Shown here: piece after piece, positions 29,355 through 40,177 of the stretch
Layout of the letters: every line of letters begins with the position of its first letter
Numbering within the stretch: the stretch's first letter is position 1
Assembly: GCA_029781975.1 (NCBI GenBank)
Contig: JAKOVQ010000017.1
Span: 62,001 to 126,000 of the forward strand
Length of the DNA stretch: 64,000 nt
Source of the DNA: Acidobacteriota bacterium
GTDB lineage: Bacteria > Acidobacteriota > Thermoanaerobaculia > UBA5066
Direction: 5' to 3'
Notes under the pieces: model-generated
What the model saw: the letters and a program-made list of their open reading frames with translations, nothing else
The model's database searches: none
Told to the model about the DNA's origin: nothing
Program-made: the position numbers and the translations under genes

Positions 29355-29714
29355 GTGTCCGACACCCGACGCCCTTCCTCCCTTCCCGGAGCCCTCCTCC
29401 TCTCCCTCGCCCTCCTCGTCGCGCTTGCGCTCAGGCCCGCCCCCCCGGCCGACGCGTCACCCGCGGAGCAGGCCGCGGAGCCGGCGCAGGTCGCCTGCGC
29501 GTTCACGAACCCCGCCTATTCCGGCGCCTGTCGCGAGAGCGTGGACCTCCTGCCTGGCAGGACGCCGGCGGAGTCGTGCAAGCCGGTCCTCGACTGCCTG
29601 AACACGACCGCCTGCCTGAAGAACTACTGCCAGGCGACCACGATCCGGAGCGGCTGGAAGCTCGAGTCGGCGAAAGTCGAGCCGAAAGTCGAGAAGGAGC
29701 GGCCCCGGAGCTAG
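29355..29714 (+). CDS. Small secreted cysteine-rich protein of unknown function
   Basis: A 119-residue protein with a Sec signal peptide (LPGALLLSLALLVALALRPA) and mature start near ADASPA. The mature 80 residues contain six cysteines within about 50 residues (VACAF, GACRE, ESCKP, LDCLN, TACLK, NYCQA), enough for three disulfides, and a charged tail rich in Lys/Glu/Pro. GTG at 29355 is supported by CAGGAGGT at the right spacing. No family recognised. Its stop codon overlaps that of the convergent leuB in the sequence CTAG. Confidence 0.7.
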   Translation: MSDTRRPSSLPGALLLSLALLVALALRPAPPADASPAEQAAEPAQVACAFTNPAYSGACRESVDLLPGRTPAESCKPVLDCLNTTACLKNYCQATTIRSGWKLESAKVEPKVEKERPRS

Positions 29715-30862
29715 CGATCCCGGGACGCCGGGAGGGGACCCGGCGGCTCCATCGGGAGCGAGTGGTCCTCGGCCTTCGCGACGCCCCGGGCCTCGGTCCG
29801 GACCTCCTCCGCCACGGCGGCGGCGAAGGCGGACGTCCCGACGCTGCCGGCCGTCCCGGTCGCGAGGTCGGCTGTTCGGAGCCCCGCCGCCAGGACGCGG
29901 ACCACCGCGCGCTCGACGAGGGCGGCTGGTCCCGCCAGGCCGAGCCCGTCGCGGAGGAGCATCGCCGCCGAGAGGATGGCCCCGATCGGGTTGGCCACGT
30001 CGCGCCCGGCGAGCGTGGGCGCCGAGCCGTGGACGGGCTCGAAGAGCCCCGGCCCGTCCCCGAGGCTCGCGGACGGGAGGAGCCCCAGGGAGCCGACGAG
30101 CGCTCCCGCCTCGTCCGAGAGGATGTCGCCGAAGAGGTTCTCCGTCAGGACGACGTCGAACCGCGCCGGGGCGAGGACGAGGGCCATGGCGCAGGAGTCG
30201 ACGTACTGGTGCTCGACCTTCACACCGGGATAGCGTCGCCCGACCTCGTCGACGACGGAGCGCCAGAGGACCGACGTCTCGAGGACGTTCGCCTTGTCGA
30301 CCGACGTGAGGAGGCCGCGCCGGGCTTCGGCGAGGCGGAAGGCGACCTCGGCGACCCGCTCCACCTCCTCCCGGCGGTAGGGGAGGGTGTTGACGGCCGT
30401 GCCCGCCTCGAGGTCGAGCGAGCGGGGCTCCCCGAAGTAGAGCCCCCCGGTCAGCTCGCGGACGATGACGAGGTCGAGCCCGCGGGCGATCTCGGGCTTC
30501 AGGGGGCCGGCCCCGTCGAGGCCGGGGAGCGCGCGGGCGGGACGGACGTTCGCGTAGACGCCGAGGGCCTTCCGAAGCCGGAGGAGCCCCGTCTCCGGCC
30601 GGCGCTCCCGCGGCTCGCCGTCGCACGCCGGGTCGCCGACCGCGCCGAGGAGGACGGCGTCGGCGGCCAGGCAGGCCGACAGCGTCCCGTCGGGGAGCGG
30701 GGTGCCGGCGAGGCGCAGGGCGGCTCCGCCGATGGGATGGGAGGTCGTCTCGAGGACGACGCCGGAGCGGGCGGTCGCCTCGCGGAGGACGCCGAGCGCC
30801 GCCCGGGTCACCTCGGGCCCGACGCCGTCGCCCGGGAGGACCGCGATGCGGGCGGCCGTCAC
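29711..30862 (-). CDS. leuB: 3-isopropylmalate dehydrogenase
   Basis: NAD-dependent oxidative decarboxylation of 3-isopropylmalate in leucine synthesis. 383 residues. Landmarks are IAVLPGDGVGPEVT at the N-terminus, RPARALPGLDGAGPLK, the substrate loop VIVRELTGGLYFGEPR, DKANVLETSVLWR and NLFGDILSDEAGALVGSLG, followed by the NAD-binding EPVHGSAPTLAGRDVANPIG. GTG at 30862 lies 7 bp after the 57-codon orf. Last gene of the attenuated ilv-leu operon. Confidence 0.95.
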   Translation of the reverse strand: MTAARIAVLPGDGVGPEVTRAALGVLREATARSGVVLETTSHPIGGAALRLAGTPLPDGTLSACLAADAVLLGAVGDPACDGEPRERRPETGLLRLRKALGVYANVRPARALPGLDGAGPLKPEIARGLDLVIVRELTGGLYFGEPRSLDLEAGTAVNTLPYRREEVERVAEVAFRLAEARRGLLTSVDKANVLETSVLWRSVVDEVGRRYPGVKVEHQYVDSCAMALVLAPARFDVVLTENLFGDILSDEAGALVGSLGLLPSASLGDGPGLFEPVHGSAPTLAGRDVANPIGAILSAAMLLRDGLGLAGPAALVERAVVRVLAAGLRTADLATGTAGSVGTSAFAAAVAEEVRTEARGVAKAEDHSLPMEPPGPLPASRDR

Positions 30863-30869
30863 GGAGCGC

Positions 30870-31043
30870 TCAGACGCCCCAGCCGTACATCTCGCGGATC
30901 TCGTCCTCCTCGGGCGAGCGCGAGAAGGGGAAGGTCATCGGCTCGGGCCGGCGGGCCCCGGGCGCCGGGGGACGTTGCGTCGAGGCCGCCTCGCGGCGGG
31001 CCTGCTGGGGCTCCTGGGACGGGGGGTCGGGCTTCTGGGACAT
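30870..31043 (-). CDS. 57-residue conserved-position small protein between leuA and leuB
   Basis: Small open reading frame with a strong ribosome-binding site (GAAGGAGGAACGA before ATG). It sits in the operon with 29 bp to leuA upstream and 7 bp to leuB downstream. The sequence is hydrophilic and Pro/Gln/Arg-rich in the first two thirds, with no signal or membrane segment. It ends with an acidic-aromatic tail, SPEEDEIREMYGWGV. No family recognised. The spacing and ribosome-binding site make it a real gene candidate missed by length cut-offs; a role in leucine or isoleucine enzyme assembly or control is speculation. Confidence 0.65.
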   Translation of the reverse strand: MSQKPDPPSQEPQQARREAASTQRPPAPGARRPEPMTFPFSRSPEEDEIREMYGWGV

Positions 31044-31072: not shown

Positions 31073-32578
31073 TCAGGCGGCGGCGGCCTCGAGCGCGCTC
31101 GTCCGCGCGGCGCCGAGAGCCGAGAGATAGGACTTCAGGGCGGCTTCGATCGAGTCGGTGGAGGCGGCGTGGCCGGTCGCCTCGGCCTCGCCGTGGCGGA
31201 CCTTCACGACGACCTCGGCGAGGGCGTCCTTGCCTCCCGTGACCGCCCGGGTCGTCAGCTCGAGGAGCTCGACGTCGAGGCCCAGGGCCGCGTCGCACGC
31301 CTTGAGCGTCGCGTCGAGGGGGCCGTTCCCCGTGGACGACCCGCTCCGGCGGTCGCCGTCGACCTCCACCTCCACGGTGGCCATCGTCATCAGGTCGTTA
31401 CCGGACAGGACCTGGTAGCGGACGAGGCGGACGCGGCGGTCGGGGACGCAGGAGACGAGGGTCAGGAGGTCCTCGTCCCAGACGAACTTCTTCCGGTCGG
31501 CCAGCTCCTTCACCCGCGCCGTGACCGACTCGACCTCGTCCTTCGACAGGTAGAGCCCGAGGCCGCGCAGCCGCGCCTCGACGGCGTGCTTGCCGGAGTG
31601 CTTGCCGAGGACGAGGTGGCTCTCGGACGCGCCGACGCTCGCCGGCGTCATGATCTCGTAGGTCAGCGGGTTGGCGAGGACGCCGTGCTGGTGGATCCCG
31701 GCCTCGTGGGCGAAGGCGTTCCGCCCGACGACCGCCTTGTTCGGCTGCGGCCAGATCCCGGTGATGGAGGAGAGGAGGTGGCTCGTCCGGACGATCTCCT
31801 CGGTCTTCACGCCCGTCGCGAGAGAGAGGAGCTCGCCCCGGACCTTCAGCGCCATGACGAACTCCTCGAGCGACGTGTTCCCGGCGCGCTCGCCTACTCC
31901 GTTGATCGTCACCTCCACCTGGCGGGCGCCGTTCCTCACGGCGGCGATCGAGTTGGCGACGGCGAGCCCGAGGTCGTCGTGGCAGTGGGCCGAGAGGGTG
32001 ACCCCGGGGACGTCGCGTGCCAGCCTCGAGAACGTCGCCCCGTACTCCTCGGGGAGGGCGTAGCCGACCGTGTCGGGGACGTTGACGGTGGTGGCGCCGG
32101 CCTCGTGGACGGCGGCGACGACGTCGCGGAGGAAGCCGTAGTCGCTCCGGGAGGCGTCCTCCGCCGAGAACTCGACGTCGGGGAAAAAGGTCAGCGCGAA
32201 CCGGACCGCCGCGACGGCCTGGCGGAGCGCCTCGTCCCGCGAGATCCGGAGCTTGTGCGCGAGGTGGAGGTCCGAGGTGGCGATGAAGGTGTGGATCCGC
32301 GGCCGCGCGGCGTCCGCGAGGGCCGCCGCGGCGTGGCGGATGTCCTCCTCGCGGGTCCGGCAGAGGGCCGCGACGGAGCAGGAGACCTCGGCCGCCACGG
32401 CCCGGACCGACTCGCGCTCGCCCGGCGAGGCCGCCGGGAACCCCGCCTCGACGACGTCGACGCCGAGGTGGTCGAGCTGCCGGGCCAGGCGGACCTTCTC
32501 GACCGGCGTCATCGAGCAGCCGGGCGACTGCTCGCCGTCGCGGAGAGTCGTGTCGAAGACGGTGACGCGGCCGTTCAT
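31073..32578 (-). CDS. leuA: 2-isopropylmalate synthase
   Basis: First committed step of leucine synthesis, acetyl-CoA plus 2-oxoisovalerate. 501 residues. The catalytic barrel starts [16 protein letters not shown], has metal ligands in [15 protein letters not shown], and the lid segment [17 protein letters not shown]. The C-terminal LeuA dimer/leucine-binding domain (about 370-501) is present, so leucine feedback inhibition is expected. ATG at 32578 overlaps the ilvC stop (ATGA). Distinct from the LeuA-like paralogue at 23335. Confidence 0.94.
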
Positions 32579-33660
32579 GCGGTCCGCGCGCCGCCGGCGC
32601 CGACGGCGCGCTCCTCCGTCCGGGGCGCCTCGGCGGCCCGGACCACGTCTCCCTCGGGGGTCACGGTGACCGCGTCGAGGAACGGCATCATCGACCGCAG
32701 GCGCGCCCCGACCTCCTCGATCGGGTGGGCCCGCTCCGCCTTCCGGAAGGCCTCGAAGTCGCCGCGGCCGGTCTGGTTCTCGGCGATCCAGCGCTGGGCG
32801 AACGAGCCGTCGCGGATCGCGGCGAGGAGGTCCCCCATCGCCCTCTTCGTCTCGTCCGTGACGACGCGGGGGCCGGCCGTGTAGTCGCCCCACTCGGCGG
32901 TGTCCGAGATGGAGTGCCGCATGTAGCCGAGCCCGCCGCGATACATCAGGTCGACGATCAGCTTCAGCTCGTGGAGGCACTCGAAGTAGGCGACCTCCGG
33001 CTGGTAGCCGGCCGCCACCAGCGTCTCGAACCCCGCCTCGACGAGGTGGGAGACGCCGCCGCAGAGGACCGCTTGCTCGCCGAACAGGTCCGTCTCGGTC
33101 TCCTCGGCGAACGTCGTCTCGAGGACCCCGGCCCGGGTGCAGCCGATGCCGCGCGCGTAGGCGAGGGCGTTCGCGAGGGCCCGGCCGCTGGCGTCCCGGT
33201 GGACCGCGACGAGCGCCGGCGTCCCCTGCCCCTCGACGAAGACCTCGCGGAGCCGGTGGCCCGGCGCCTTCGGGGCGACCATCGAGACGTCGACCCCCTC
33301 GGGGGCGTCGATCGTCCCGAACCGCACGTTGAAGCCGTGGGCGAACATCAGGGTCTTGCCCGGCTTCAGCGCCGGCGCGATCTCGTCGCGGTAGAGAGCC
33401 GCCTGGCTCGTGTCGGGGGCGAGGACCATGACGACGACCGCCCGCTCGCACGCCTCGCGGGGGGTCGCGACCGCGAGGCCGTGCTCGGCCGCCTTCGCCC
33501 GCGAGCGGCTGGACGGGGGAAGGCCGACGACGACGTCGACGCCGCTGTCGCGGAGGTTGAGGGCGTGGGCGTGCCCCTGGCTCCCGTAGCCGAGGACCGC
33601 AACCGTCTTTCCCTGGAGGTCCTCGAGGCGGGCGTCGCTGTCGTAGTAGATCCGGGCCAT
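32575..33660 (-). CDS. ilvC: Ketol-acid reductoisomerase (class I)
   Basis: NADPH- and Mg-dependent isomeroreductase of valine/isoleucine synthesis. 361 residues, slightly longer than the usual class I length through an extended C-terminal tail. The Rossmann motif is [15 protein letters not shown], followed by a phosphate-binding loop [10 protein letters not shown] consistent with NADPH. Metal and catalytic segments are [19 protein letters not shown] and [19 protein letters not shown] at 33660 has AAGGAGA upstream. A 92-bp gap separates it from ilvN. Confidence 0.95.
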
Positions 33661-33752: not shown

Positions 33753-34292
33753 TCAGCTCGCGATCTCCAGGGGGTCGGACTCCGCGTCGTCGTCCTTCCC
33801 GGCGCCGCGCCTCGCCGACGACCCGCGGGCCATGGCCACCTTTCCGGTCCGGACCATCTCGACGATCCCGCGGGGGCGGAGGAGCTCCACCAGCCCGTCC
33901 ACCTTGTCGACGTCGCCGGTGCACTCGACGATGACCGTGTCCGCCGCCACGTCCACGATCCGGGCGCGGAAGATCGAGATCAGGTCGTTGACCTGGGACC
34001 GCTCGGTCTCGGCGCACCGGACGCGGATGAGCGCGAGCTCGCGGGACACCGTCGGGACGTGCGTGACGTCGTGCACCTCGAGGACCGGGACGAGCTTGCG
34101 GAGGTTCGCCTCGACGATCCGCGACGGCACCTTCGAGGTGTCGACGACGAACGTCATCCGCGACACCCCTTCCGTCTCGCTGTGGCCGACGGTCAGGCTC
34201 TCGACGTTGAAGGCGCGCCGCCGGAACATGCTGACGACGCGGACGAGGACGCCCGGCTGGTCCTTCACGCTGGCGATCAGGGTGTGCTTCAC
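33753..34292 (-). CDS. ilvN: Acetolactate synthase small regulatory subunit
   Basis: ACT-domain subunit activating IlvB and conferring valine feedback inhibition. 179 residues. The N-terminal ACT domain ([20 protein letters not shown], with FNVESLTVG) is followed by the C-terminal ALS_ss domain ([27 protein letters not shown]). GTG at 34292 overlaps the ilvB stop (GTGA). The last 20 residues are an extra Lys/Asp-rich tail. Confidence 0.93.
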
Positions 34293-35989
34293 GCGCTCAC
34301 CTCCCGGGCGGGCGGGTGGGGGCGCCGGATCATCGCGTGGAGGTCCGCTCCGGCCGGGACCATCGGGTAGACGGCCTCCTCGCTTTGGACGACGAAGTGG
34401 ATGAGGGCGGGCCCCGGGCGGCTCCTCACGCTCTCGACCGTCGGGATGACGGCGTCGCGCGTCGTCACGCGGTGGGCCGGGATCCCGTAGGCCTCGGCCA
34501 GCTTGACGAAGTCGGGGGAGAGGAGCGGCGTGGCGGCGTAGCGGCGCTCGTAGAAGAACTCCTGCCACTGCCGGACCATCCCGAGGTAGCCGTTGTCGAC
34601 GACGGCGATCTTGATGTCGAGCTTCTCCTGGACGACGGTCGCGAGCTCGGCCTGCGTCATCTGGAAGCCGCCGTCGCCGGCGACGACCCAGACCTCGGCC
34701 TGGGGACACGCGAGCTTGGCGCCGATGGCGGCCGGGAGGGCGAAGCCCATCGTCCCGAGGCCGCCGGAGGTCAGGAGCGTTCGGGGCTGCTCGTGGGGGT
34801 AGTACTGGGCCTCGAACATCTGGTGCTGGCCCACGTCGCTGACGACCATCGCGCCCCCCTTCGTCGCCTTCCAGACGTCGTTGATGACGTGGGGGGCGAG
34901 GAGGGCCTCCCCCTCGGGCCGGTTCTGGATGCAGCGCGCGCGGGACTCGCGGCGCCACCCGTCGACCTGCGACAGCCACGGCTCGTGGCCCCTGGCCTCG
35001 ACCAGGGGGAGGAGGGCCTCGAGGACGTGCTTCAGGTCCCCGACGAGAGGGACGTCGACCGGGACGTTCTTCCCGACCTCCGACGGGTCGATCTCGACGT
35101 GGATCTTCTTCGCCCCGGGGGCGTAGCTCTTCAGGTTCCCGGTGACCCGGTCGTCGAACCGCATCCCGAGGGCGAGGAGGAGGTCGGACCTCTGGATCGC
35201 CGTGTTGACGTGGGCCTCGCCGTGCATTCCCATCATCCCGAGGCAGAGGGGGTGGCTCGGCGGGAAGCCGCCGAGGCCGAGGAGGGTCAGCGCGACGGGG
35301 GTACCCGTCTTCTCCGCGAAGGACGTCAGGACCGCCGTGGCTCCGGAGTCGATCACGCCGTGCCCGGCGAGGATCACGGGGCGCTCGGCCTCGGCGATCA
35401 GCTGCACCGCCTTGCGGAGGTCGGCGCGCCTGAGCGGGGGCGTCCGGCGGGCGGGGGCCTCGACGGCCTCGGGCCAGCGGAGCTCGGTCGACGCCTGCTG
35501 CGCGTCCTTGCAGATGTCGACCAGGACGGGGCCGGGGCGGCCGGAGCGCGCGATGGCGAAGGCCTCGAGGATCGCCGGCGCGACGTCCTCCACCCGCGTC
35601 ACCAGGACGTTGTGCTTGGTGATCGGCATCGTGATGCCGACGATGTCGGCTTCCTGGAAGGCGTCGCTCCCGAGGACCTTCGACGGGACCTGGCCGGTGA
35701 TGAAGACCACCGGGATCGAGTCGAGCATGGCGTTCGCGATGCCGGTGACGAGGTTCGTCGCGCCGGGTCCCGACGTCGCGATCGCGACCCCGACCCGTCC
35801 GCTGGCGCGGGCGTACCCGTCGGCGGCGTGGGCCGCCCCCTGCTCGTGGCGCACGAGGACGTGGCGGACGGGGTAGTCCAGCATGGCGTCGTAGACCGGG
35901 AGGATCGCCCCCCCGGGGTAGCCGAACACGGTGTCGACCCCCTCGCGGACGAGGCATTCCCACACGATCTGGGCTCCGGTCCTCTTCAT
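34289..35989 (-). CDS. ilvB: Acetolactate synthase large catalytic subunit
   Basis: Thiamine-diphosphate enzyme condensing pyruvate with pyruvate or 2-oxobutyrate. 566 residues. The TPP-activating Glu is in [19 protein letters not shown], the FAD/pyrimidine-domain segments include GHGVIDSGA and DRVTGNL, and the TPP motif is [16 protein letters not shown] ending [14 protein letters not shown]. The start ATG and the ilvD stop share one base (TGATG). Confidence 0.95.
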
Positions 35990-37731
35990 CAGAACCTCCC
36001 GGCCAGCCGGCCGCTCTCGACCCCTCGCCGGGGGGCCGCGGACGGCGCGGCGACGTCGTCGCCGTCCCTCAGCACCGCCCCCTGCGCCGCGTTCGTGACG
36101 AGGGCGCGGTAGCGCCGGAGCCACCGGCTCGCGACCTCGCGGCGGAGGATGGGGGTCCCGGCCCGGCGCCTCTCCATCTCCCCGGGGGCGACCTCGAGGT
36201 CGAGGGTCCGCGCGTCGAGGTCCACCGTGACCAGGTCGCCGTCGCGGACGAAGGCGATCGGCCCCCCCTCGCCGGCCTCGGGGCTGACGTGGCCGACGCA
36301 CGCGCCGCGGGTCCCGCCGGAGAAGCGCCCGTCGGTGACGAGGGCGACCTTCTCGCCGAGGCCCATCCCCATCAGCGCCGACGTGGGGGAGAGCATCTCC
36401 TGCATGCCGGGGCCGCCGCGGGGCCCCTCGTGGCGGATGACGACGACGTCCCCCGCCTTCACCAGGCCGCCCGTGATCCCCCCCATGGCGTCTTCCTGGC
36501 TCTCGAAGACGACCGCGGGGCCGCTGTGGCGCCGCATCGACGGGGCGACCCCGGCGGTCTTGACGACCGACCCCTCGGGCGCGAGCGAGCCGAAGAGGAT
36601 CGCGAGCCCGCCGCGGGCCGAGTGGGGCCTCGAGACGGGCCGGATCACCTCGTCGTCCGACGCCGGCGCCGCCGCCACGTGGTCGCGGAAGGTCCCGGCG
36701 ACGGTGGGGCGGTCGAGGTGGAGGCGCCCGATCGAGGCGAGCCGCTCGAGGATCGCCGGGACCCCCCCGGCGCGGTGGACGTCGTCCATGTGCCAGGGGC
36801 CCGATGGAGCGACCTTCGCGAGGTGGGGCGTGGCGTCGGCCACGGCGTTGATCCGCTCGAGCGGGTATGGGACCCCCGCCTCGTTCGCGATGGCGAGGGT
36901 GTGGAGGACGGTGTTCGTCGAGCCCCCCATCGCCACGTCGAGGGCGAACGCGTCGTCGAGCGCCTCGCGCGTGACGATCTTCCGCGGCGTCAGGTCCGCC
37001 GCGACGAGGGCGACGATCCTGGAGGCGGCCGCCCGCGCCAGGGCCTCGCGCTCGGCGCTCCGCGCGAGCGCCGTCCCGTTGAAGGGGAGGGCGAGGCCGA
37101 GCGCCTCCATCAGGCAGTTCATGGAGTTCGCCGTGAAGAGGCCCGAGCAGGAGCCGCACGACGGGCAGGCGAGCGACTCGAGCTCGTGGAGGCGCTCGGC
37201 GCCGATCGAGCCGGCCCGGAAGGCGCCGACGCCCTCGAAGACGCTGATCAGGTCGATCGGGCGTCCCGTCCGGTCGCGCCCCGTCGCCATCGGCCCGCCC
37301 GAGACGAAGACCGCCGGGACGTCGAGGCGGACCGCCGCCATCAGCATCCCCGGCGTGATCTTGTCGCAGTTCGGGATGCAGACCATCCCGTCGAACCGGT
37401 GCGCCGAGACCATCGTCTCGACGCAGTCGGCGATCAGCTCGCGGGAGGGGAGCGAGAGCTTCATCCCCTCGTGCCCCATCGCGATCCCGTCGTCGACGCC
37501 GATGGTGTTGAACTCGAACGGCACGGCGCCGGCGGCCCGCACGGCCTCCTTCACCAGGGCTCCGAGCTCGCGGAGGTGGACGTGTCCCGGGACGACGTCG
37601 ACGTACGAGTTGACGATCGCGACGAACGGCTTGTCCCAGTCGCCCTCGCCGACGACCCCCGTGGCCCGCAGCAGGCTCCTGTGCGGCGCCCTCTCCGGCC
37701 CTCTCTTGATCGCGTCCGACCTCATCGGCAT
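35989..37731 (-). CDS. ilvD: Dihydroxy-acid dehydratase
   Basis: Iron-sulfur dehydratase giving 2-oxoisovalerate or 2-oxo-3-methylvalerate. 580 residues. Cluster cysteines are in [11 protein letters not shown] and [18 protein letters not shown], with the further landmarks [36 protein letters not shown] and [19 protein letters not shown]. First structural gene after the leader-peptide attenuator, 39 nt downstream of the terminator's U-run. Confidence 0.95.
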
Positions 37732-37770
37732 GCGGGTCTCCGTTCCCTTTCGGCGTTGCGCCCGGAGGCG

Positions 37771-37850
37771 CCCAAAAACGAAGACCCCCGGGTTTCCCCG
37801 GGGGTCTGCTGATCGCTGGCTCTCTTCGGCCTAGATCAACCGACCCCCGG
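37771..37850 (-). promoter_or_regulatory. Transcription attenuator with antiterminator/terminator switch for the ilv-leu operon
   Basis: On the minus strand, segment 2 (37850 to 37842, CCGGGGGTC) lies in the last codons of the leader peptide. Segment 3 (37806 to 37798) is GACCCCCGG. Segment 4 (37791 to 37783) is again CCGGGGGTC. Segments 3 and 4 belong to an 11-bp intrinsic terminator stem (arms 37797-37807 and 37782-37792, 4-nt loop) followed by CGTTTTTGGG. Segments 2 and 4 have the same sequence and compete for segment 3. A ribosome stalled in the Leu/Val/Ile run leaves segment 2 free to form the 9-bp antiterminator; a ribosome reaching the stop codon (37836-37838) masks it, so the terminator forms. 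Sequences are observed; the mechanism follows known amino-acid operon attenuation. Confidence 0.88.
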
Positions 37851-37967
37851 AGGGCCGATGACGAGGACCAGAAGGACGAGGACGAGCAGCGAGAGGACGA
37901 CGCTCCCCGCGACGGCCTGCGGGACCGGGGTCGAGATGCGGGCGGCGGCGGCGTTCTCTCGGCTCAT
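37836..37967 (-). CDS. ilv-leu operon leader peptide (43 aa)
   Basis: Short reading frame between the operon promoter and the attenuator. Residues 23-37 read VVLSLLVLVLLVLVI, 14 of 15 being leucine, valine or isoleucine, the regulatory end-products of the genes downstream. The frame ends IGPPGVG then TGA, so its last codons form the antiterminator strand. ATG at 37967 is chosen because the likely -10 box lies at 37985-37990; a longer frame starting at 38018 would begin upstream of the promoter. No good Shine-Dalgarno sequence precedes it. Like IlvL/LeuL, the peptide itself probably has no function. Confidence 0.85.
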   Translation of the reverse strand: MSRENAAAARISTPVPQAVAGSVVLSLLVLVLLVLVIGPPGVG

Positions 37968-37984
37968 GACGGTAAAGTTGGCGG

Positions 37985-38014
37985 ACTTTACGGAATCCCC
38001 TCGACGGGTGTCAA
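37985..38014 (-). promoter_or_regulatory. Sigma-70-type promoter of the ilv-leu operon
   Basis: Minus strand: perfect -35 TTGACA (38009-38014), 18-bp spacer, -10 TAAAGT (37985-37990). Transcription should start near 37978, about 10 nt before the leader-peptide ATG. A perfect 7-bp inverted repeat, GTAAAGT and ACTTTAC (37972-37978 and 37985-37991), overlaps the -10 and start site and could be an operator. Confidence 0.75.
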
Positions 38015-38056
38015 GCACGAAATCGCAGGAACGAACGGAGCGGGTCCTGCACCGCG

Positions 38057-38084
38057 GTCCGCGGTCGCAGCCTGCGACGCGGAC
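38057..38084 (-). terminator. Hairpin after leuD, candidate leuCD terminator
   Basis: Twelve base pairs with one bulged base: arms 38057-38062 with 38079-38084, and 38064-38069 with 38073-38078, loop of 3. It lies 47 bp past the leuD stop, before the ilv promoter. A second G+C-rich inverted repeat lies at 38103-38118. Neither has a U-run. Confidence 0.5.
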
Positions 38085-38130
38085 GTCAGGGCAGCCTCGC
38101 GCGCGGGGCGGGCCCCGCCTCGCGGAGGCC

Positions 38131-38721
38131 TCAGAAACCCGTGACGTAAGGGAGCCGTTCCGCGACGGCGCGGACCTCTTCGGGTCGCTGGAGGAGGGCG
38201 TTGAGCCCGTCCCATCCGTCCGAAAGGAACGCCTGGCGGGTGGCCTCGGGGAGCGAGCAGGCGAAGGTCCTCTCTCCCGCGGAGACCGAGAGCGTCTCGA
38301 GGTCGACCGAGCAGGGTGTGCCGGGCGCGCTCTCGACGATCTCCTGCAGCGCGAGCGCGTCGCCGTGCGCGACCGTCACGCAGGGGAGACCGAGGGCGAC
38401 CGCGTTGCCGAAGAAGATCTCCGAGTAGCCCTCGCCGACGATCGCGCGGATCCCGCGCCGGACGAGCGCCTGCGGGGCGTGCTCGCGCGAGGAGCCGCAG
38501 CCGAAGTTCCGGTTGACGAGGAGGATCGACGCCGCCGCGTGCTCGGGCCTCTCGAACGGGTGAGTCCCCCGGAGGGCCCTGCGGTCGTCCTCGAACGCGT
38601 GCGCGCCGAGCCCCTCGAACGTGACTGCCTTCAGGAAGCGGGCCGGGATGATCCGGTCGGTGTCGATGTCGTCCCCCCGGAGCGGGAGGGCGGTGCCGGC
38701 GACGCGGACGATGGAGCTCAT
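38131..38721 (-). CDS. leuD: 3-isopropylmalate dehydratase small subunit
   Basis: Swivel-domain subunit of isopropylmalate isomerase, 196 residues. Landmarks are [41 protein letters not shown] and [18 protein letters not shown] at 38721 overlaps the leuC stop (ATGA). Encoded upstream of, and apparently transcribed separately from, the attenuated ilv-leuAB operon. Confidence 0.95.
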
Positions 38722-40136
38722 ACCTGCCCCTCGGTGGAGAGGAGCGTCCGGACGTCGACGACGGCGCCCTCGACGGCCGCGGCCGCCACCATCGCGGGGC
38801 TCATCAGGAGCGTCCGCCCGGTGGGGCTCCCCTGGCGTCCCTTGAAGTTCCGGTTCGACGTGGACGCGCAGACCTGCCGTCCCTCGAGCCGATCCGGGTT
38901 CATCGCCAGGCACATCGAGCAGCCGGCGTGCCGCCACTCGAAGCCGGCGGCCCGGAAGACCTCGTCGAGCCCCTCCCGCTCCGCGGCGGCCTTCACGGCG
39001 ACCGAGCCGGGGACGGCGAGCGCCCTGACGTGGGGGGCGACGCGGCGCCCGCGAAGGACGTCGGCGGCGGCCCGGAGGTCGGACAGCCTCCCGTTCGTGC
39101 ACGACCCGATGAAGGCGACGTCGATCCGCGTCCCCGCGATCGGCTCGCCCCCGGAGAAGCCCATGTAGGCGAGCGCCTCCTCGACTCCGGCCCGCTCCTC
39201 CGCGGGGACGTCGACGGGGCGGGGGACCCGGCCGCCGACCGCGGTCGACTGGCCCGGGTTGATCCCCCACGTGACGTTCGGCTCGACCTCGGCGGCGGCG
39301 AGGACCACGTCGTCGTCGTAGGGGGCGTCCGGATCCGAGGCGATCGAGCGCCACCAGGCGACGGCGCGGTCCCACGCGGCGACCGACGGCGCGAAGCGAC
39401 GGCCCGAGAGGTAGGCGAAGGTCGTCTCGTCCGGGTTGACGTAGCCGACCCGCGCCCCTCCCTCGATGGCCATGTTGCAGAGGGTCATCCGCTCGTCCAT
39501 CGACAGCGCCCTCACGGCGCTCCCGCCGTACTCGTAGGCGTAGCCGGCGCCTCCCTTCACGCCGAGCCGGCGGAGGACCTCGAGGGCCACGTCCTTGGCG
39601 GTGACGCCCGGACGGAGCCGCCCTTCGACGGCGACTCGCCTCACCTTCAGCGGCTCCAGCGCCAGGCACTGCGAGGCGAGGACGTCCCGGACCTGCGAGG
39701 TGCCGATCCCGAGCGCGACGGCCCCGAAGGCGCCGTGCGTCGACGTGTGGCTGTCGCCGCACGCGATCGTCATCCCGGGCTGCGTCAGGCCGAGCTCGGG
39801 GCCGATCACGTGGACGATCCCCTGCGCCTCGCTCCCGAGGCCGTGGAGCGGGATGCCGAAGTCGCGGCAGTTGCGCTCGAGCGCGGAGAGCATCTCCTCG
39901 GCCATCGGGTCGGCGAAGGGGCGTTCCTGCGCGTCGGTCGGGACGATGTGGTCGACGGTGGCGACCGTCCGCTCCGGGAACGGGACGCCGAGGCCGCGCA
40001 GCCGGAGCATGTCGAACGCCTGCGGGCTCGTCACCTCGTGGACGAGGTGGAGTCCCACGAAGAGCTGCGTCTGGCCCGTCGGGAGCCGGCGGACCGCGTG
40101 GGAGTCCCAGACCTTCGAGAAGAGGGTGCGTCCCAT
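38718..40136 (-). CDS. leuC: 3-isopropylmalate dehydratase large subunit
   Basis: Aconitase-family [4Fe-4S] subunit, 472 residues. Cluster cysteines are in [14 protein letters not shown] and [13 protein letters not shown]; other signatures are [14 protein letters not shown] and [13 protein letters not shown] at 40136 begins [15 protein letters not shown], typical of LeuC. A possible extended -10 (TGCTACCCT, hexamer 40149-40154 on the minus strand) lies about 12 nt upstream of the ATG. Confidence 0.95.
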
Positions 40137-40177
40137 CCTGGGGCGGAGAGGGTAGCACCGGGGTCCCGGGCGCGGGG

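Follow-up and report, generated by a model that had tools for sequence, protein, structure and literature searches.

A probable leader-peptide attenuator rich in branched-chain amino acid codons before the ilvDBNC-leuA-orf57-leuB operon of an Acidobacteriota bacterium

The enterobacterial ilvGMEDA (ilvL), ilvBN (ivbL) and leuABCD (leuL) operons are controlled by attenuators in which the leader peptide is rich in branched-chain amino acids (BCAA), its stop codon lies close to segment 2, the 2:3 and 3:4 hairpins exclude each other and the terminator is U-tailed. In Corynebacterium glutamicum, the ilvBNC transcript begins (+1) a single nucleotide from the ATG of the leader (PMC11857589); a 15-residue peptide, MTIIRLVVVTARRLP, is encoded in the ilvBNC / ilvB-II leader, the first hairpin is an anti-antiterminator, and changing ATG to AGG in ilvBNC cuts expression by 80% (PMC10272879, PMC11857589). 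In actinobacterial ilvB leaders, short ORFs that contain runs of Ile/Val/Leu are found close to terminators, the ORF overlapping the terminator itself, and codon changes in the Streptomyces coelicolor ilvB leader were without effect (PMC1262725). The ilvB-OMG and Leptospira ilvB motifs have been proposed as uORF attenuators before ilvB that are rich in Thr plus BCAA (PMC10272879). For Acidobacteria, one study reported that attenuators had almost no functional annotation (PMC2965389). Our literature search returned no BCAA leader peptide for Acidobacteriota or Chloroflexota, which is weak evidence, since most subscription journals lie outside its coverage.

The stretch of DNA analysed here (the window, 64,000 nucleotides) is part of a 5.37-Mb draft genome. 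Within it, the ilvDBNC-leuA-orf57-leuB genes are very probably under classical ribosome-mediated transcription attenuation. The relevant features, in the direction of transcription, are as follows.

38718-40142, minus strand: leuC, just upstream of the leader and before the promoter
38131-38640, minus strand: leuD, likewise just upstream and before the promoter
37985..38014, minus strand: predicted promoter TTGACA-18-TAAAGT, with TTGACA from 38014, an 18-nt spacer and TAAAGT to 37985
37836..37967, minus strand: leader peptide ORF MSRENAAAARISTPVPQAVAGSVVLSLLVLVLLVLVIGPPGVG and stop codon, 43 codons, no Shine-Dalgarno site
37857..37901, minus strand: control codons, residues 23-37 (VVLSLLVLVLLVLVI), 14/15 being Leu/Val/Ile
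37834..37852, minus strand: segment 2, the antiterminator 5' strand, overlapping the last codons and the stop codon
37797..37814, minus strand: segment 3, the antiterminator 3' strand, including the terminator 5' arm
37774..37807, minus strand: predicted intrinsic terminator, a 3:4 hairpin of 11 bp with a GAAA loop (-25.4 kcal/mol) and a U-rich tail
35989..37731, minus strand: ilvD (Pfam PF00920/PF24877)
34289..35992, minus strand: ilvB (Pfam)
33753..34280, minus strand: ilvN (Pfam)
32578..33600, minus strand: ilvC (Pfam; the coordinates are those of the segment scanned, not of the gene start)
31073..32581, minus strand: leuA (Pfam)
30870..31043, minus strand: orf57, 57 codons between leuA and leuB, with no Pfam family
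29711..30862, minus strand: leuB (Pfam)

An earlier note on this DNA, made from its letters, had described most of this arrangement, and its description stands up well. The TTGACA/TAAAGT promoter can be read directly on the minus strand, as can the 43-codon frame with 14 of 15 Leu/Val/Ile at residues 23-37; the U-tailed 11-bp terminator is confirmed, segment 2 does begin 6 nt past the ATC (Ile) codon, and CCGGGGGTC at 37850-37842 is identical to the distal terminator arm and complementary to the proximal one. Pfam likewise confirms the identities and order of the genes after the leader, ilvDBNC-leuA-orf-leuB. The 9-nt 2:3 complementarity that the note had reported is present, its length having been understated: duplex prediction gives a helix of 11 + 7 bp with one mismatch, in which CTCCGGGGGTC-G-GTTGATC pairs with GATCAGC-A-GACCCCCGGGG and which extends from the Pro codons past the TGA stop. 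In orf57, a 22-residue stretch is 91% identical in the related genome G005.

The terminator hairpin, AGACCCCCGGG-GAAA-CCCGGGGGTCT (37807-37782) followed by TCGTTTTT, is the only one found within the surrounding 2 kb. It lies between the first gene and an ORF of predicted translation that is rich in the amino acids of the pathway, as is expected of a leader-peptide attenuator. According to the pairing analysis, antiterminator and terminator are mutually exclusive, segment 3 being common to both. The 2:3 duplex of the window has an energy of -40.2 kcal/mol, which is equalled by 2/1000 shuffles of segment 2 and by 45/1000 synonymous recodings of the last nine codons.

A Leu/Val/Ile-rich uORF with a terminator just 5' of ilvD was found at 16 acidobacterial loci: ten in the window's order, five in a second family of the same class (f13) and one in G048, a more distant class relative whose version is short and less clear. 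In the order, 10/10 ilvD-bearing genomes (of 19 examined), all from the window's own family, carry the leader, each with the BCAA-rich uORF, whose stop codon falls within segment 2 or adjoins it, and with the terminator immediately before ilvD. Four genomes of this family (G003, G004, G009 and G011, each at least 90% complete) gave no ilvD match and are possible BCAA auxotrophs. Class members with ilvD after ilvC or elsewhere have no such leader directly 5' of ilvD.

The BCAA-rich run is kept in all relatives aligned. The N-terminal half of the leader is not conserved, and its C-terminal end, which encodes segment 2, persists across relatives while the N-terminus diverges. Control codons ending in U are enriched relative to each genome's own ilvD (CTT, 28 against 7.6 expected; ATT, 18 against 3.2), an enrichment of Leu/Ile codons that is a property of the locus set, the window's own leader having one such codon. 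A bias towards one class of tRNA isoacceptor was also weighed and rejected: overall NNY use equals that of the operon genes. The leader has a second match in the genome (C25, 35 nt, E 3.7e-4), covering Leu/Val coding sequence only.

Antiterminator energies range from -20 to -41 kcal/mol across the acidobacterial loci except G048. In 13/16 loci, at most 3.3% of nucleotide shuffles match the 2:3 energy; G010, G073 and G048 are individually weak, and G048 has no significant 2:3 helix in either the shuffle or the recoding test. Since synonymous recoding of the last nine codons abolishes the pairing in most loci, the peptide sequence alone does not explain it; this test is weak for G001, G010, G068, G069 and G070, and it says nothing about G073, whose segment 2 lies beyond the stop codon. 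The pairing segments differ by lineage, being CCGGGGGTC/GACCCCCGG in the window, GGGGTGC/GCACCCC in genus g3 and GGGCCGTTTTC/GAAAACGGCCC in G070, and when five lineage groups with differing segments 2 and 3 are permuted, matching each with its own partner ranks 1/120. The comparison with related genomes that the note had suggested comes out in its favour: over the 16 loci the run is conserved and, as judged from sequence comparison, segments 2 and 3 co-change between lineages.

We have also followed the pairing in a folding model in which the RNA is made up to the terminator loop and the ribosome hides everything to 14 nt past its A-site codon (an assumed leading edge). In the window, with segment 4 not emerged, segment 3 is predicted to pair with segment 2 at 85-91% up to the fourth-last BCAA codon in the A site, at 87, 63 and 36% when the A site holds the last Leu, Val and Ile codon, respectively, and at 0-11% over the stretch that begins with the following Gly and ends at the stop. 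A drop in 2:3 pairing near the end of the run is predicted in 15/16 acidobacterial loci, in line with the geometry of an attenuator, in which a stall in the run frees segment 2 and a ribosome at the stop codon covers it. Since Ile is a single codon at the end of the run, the model predicts for the window that Ile starvation alone would be detected least efficiently.

At equilibrium, folding of the full-length leader favours the terminator for most ribosome positions, and the switch therefore depends on the co-transcriptional order of events; such timing dependence is normal for attenuators. Equilibrium folding of the complete leader was dropped as a criterion, the decision being a co-transcriptional one, and such folding alone does not show a switch; nor is the complete leader unusually stable compared with shuffles (z -1.25). 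In the folding model of untranslated RNA, no 1:2 protector hairpin is predicted. In such RNA ending ahead of segment 4, the pairing of segment 3 to segment 2 amounts to 91% in the window, to 45% in G048 and to 52-100% in the remaining 14 loci. The lack of a predicted 1:2 protector means that untranslated RNA should default to read-through. Assignment to the four-segment trp/his subtype, which has such a protector, was rejected, as segment 3 of the untranslated RNA is held by segment 2.

The promoter is the sole sigma70-like site on both strands of 37000-39000 (shuffles give 0.0), and a TTGAC-17/18-hexamer is present in 12/16 acidobacterial loci, 7-17 nt 5' of the leader start codon; in the window, the -10 box and the start codon are 17 nt apart. 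If the start site lies ~7 nt past the -10 box, the predicted 5' leader is ~0-10 nt and the leader ORF would be nearly leaderless in these 12/16 loci. By predicted anti-Shine-Dalgarno energy (+0.7 for the leader ORF vs -6.6 for ilvD), there is no Shine-Dalgarno site before the leader ORF of the window. A perfect 7-bp inverted repeat, GTAAAGT-CCGCCA-ACTTTAC (37972-37991), spans the -10 box, and the earlier note had read it as a possible repressor input. This gains little from the comparison: the repeat occurs once per genome, and its core is kept in three genera (3 of 16 genomes), being identical in G005 and G013 only. A repressor regulon built on it was searched for in the genomes and not found, each having a single copy.

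Taken together, conservation, co-change of the segments and the ribosome-position model uphold the central reading of a leader peptide with a 2:3 antiterminator and a 3:4 terminator. Transcription would start a few nucleotides 5' of the leader ATG, so that the ribosome would load almost at the 5' end. A shortage of Leu-, Val- or Ile-tRNA would stall the ribosome within the run and leave segment 2 free to pair with the emerging segment 3, so that no terminator would form and ilvDBNC-leuA-orf57-leuB would be transcribed. With ample charged tRNAs, it would reach GPPGVG-stop and cover segment 2, the 3:4 hairpin would form and transcription would end. We infer from these features that the leader ORF is translated, that termination takes place in vivo and that the operon responds to amino acids.

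The same elements could be read in other ways. As leuC-leuD end at 38131, just 5' and on the same strand, the terminator might merely end transcripts that come from leuCD or elsewhere upstream, and the ORF, whose Leu/Val/Ile run looks like a transmembrane helix, might encode a small single-span membrane protein, with no translation-based regulation. The placement of leuC-leuD, which the earlier note did not mention, is outside the attenuator's reach. Against this, the predicted promoter is placed after leuD and ahead of the terminator, and in G005 and G006 the leader unit is retained with leuD 2-3 kb away; since other sequence parts leuC-leuD from the leader in these two relatives, the leader belongs to the ilvD side. 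This reading would also fit poorly with an unconserved N-terminus, a stop codon that lies within segment 2 or adjoins it and the co-change of segments 2 and 3, and we consider this explanation very improbable. Less probable still is that nascent-peptide or polyproline (GPPG) pausing is the main switch, sensing elongation-factor P or general translation speed and not BCAA-tRNA. PPG is a known pause motif and IGPPG follows the run in 5/6 closest relatives; however, PP is missing in G006, genus g3 and family f13, where the remaining design is kept, and the CCTCCGGGGG sequence is accounted for by segment 2 pairing.

We give equally little credence to a ligand- or tRNA-binding leader (a T-box, ppGpp riboswitch or similar) that controls the terminator, with the ORF incidental. 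Elsewhere among bacteria, such elements do control ilv or leu genes (for ppGpp, PMC10272879), but only ~185 nt, mostly coding, separate the -10 box from the terminator, and no Rfam leader family, T-box or ppGpp riboswitch matches the leader at gathering score, sub-threshold chance matches being seen at E up to 10. An Rfam match to a Brucella sRNA (E 0.0024) was discarded, as it is on the opposite strand, far under the gathering score and mainly on the terminator stem.

The arrangement is also seen beyond Acidobacteriota. A strict scan of 80 ilvD loci of other genomes found a uORF-terminator before ilvD in at least 55 loci, mostly from Chloroflexota (Anaerolineae), with 58 such pairs directly 5' of ilvD vs 5 anywhere else on either strand. 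Leaders of this kind are present in the cultured Anaerolineae Bellilinea caldifistulae and Ornatilinea apprima (L082, L065). In many of 29 loci examined, the pairing falls as the ribosome leaves the run, L029, L076 and L079 being among the partial falls. Three Anaerolineae loci (L074 8594-8909, L084 99-480 and L095 2550-2835) have tandem uORF-plus-terminator units before ilvD, possibly double attenuators. Leu/Ile-rich short ORFs that the strict scan missed lie 5' of ilvD in L036, L054 and L083 (Bacteroidota-, Ignavibacteriota- and KSB1-titled), and may be attenuators. In seven genomes, no convincing attenuator of this kind was found before trpE, hisG or pheA, which may not be operon-first there.

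The merged ilv+leu operon with one leader had been noted as unusual, a view that does not survive this comparison: Anaerolineae carry [uORF-terminator]-ilvDBNC-leuA-leuCD, the order ilvD-ilvB-ilvN-ilvC-leuA being common with the window. The E. coli ilvL leader also combines Ile, Val and Leu. In a quick IlvD tree with long branches, the window's clade falls within a group made up mostly of Chloroflexota, among them Anaerolineae with the same ilvDBNC-leuA order, and away from the ilvD type that other class members carry, a position which suggests that the ilvDBNC-leuA operon type has been exchanged between Acidobacteriota and Anaerolineae. Genus g3 and G069/G070, although their ilvD is of the other type, also carry attenuators, and the attenuator is therefore not tied to one gene lineage.

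It is conceivable, though rather doubtful, that these loci form one large, unnamed group of nearly leaderless BCAA attenuators before ilvD in Acidobacteriota and Chloroflexota, which would have no protector, be ON unless the ribosome reaches the stop, and have moved between phyla with the ilvDBNC-leuA operon. The locus and its relatives make a well-supported case in Acidobacteriota, with dozens in Chloroflexota, and make it possible to ask whether switches of this kind have evolved many times or are carried along with the operons under their control. The mechanism is classical; its setting is new, in phyla where leader-peptide attenuators have hardly been annotated. Rfam models match neither the window leader nor the leaders of seven Anaerolineae loci.

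The closest described systems bracket the window leader in different ways. With the enterobacterial ilvGMEDA, ilvBN and leuABCD attenuators it shares the BCAA peptide, the proximity of stop codon and segment 2, the exclusive hairpins and the U-tailed terminator; in contrast to them, it is not recognisably related in sequence (no Rfam leader matched), it lacks both a Shine-Dalgarno site and a predicted 1:2 protector, and it precedes an ilvDBNC-leuA-leuB operon in the phylum Acidobacteriota. The ilvB-OMG and Leptospira ilvB motifs, compared with it by description only, have likewise been proposed to attenuate ilv genes through a uORF in lineages other than Proteobacteria and Actinobacteria, but they precede ilvB and are Thr-rich too, whereas the window leader precedes ilvD. 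The actinobacterial ilvB leaders share the short ORF with a BCAA run near a terminator, and the window differs from them by its separate 2:3 antiterminator. C. glutamicum ilvBNC has the BCAA leader peptide, the terminator/antiterminator pair and the leaderless start (a few nucleotides in the window, as predicted) in common with it; the window peptide, however, has 43 residues rather than 15, and our model predicts read-through without translation.
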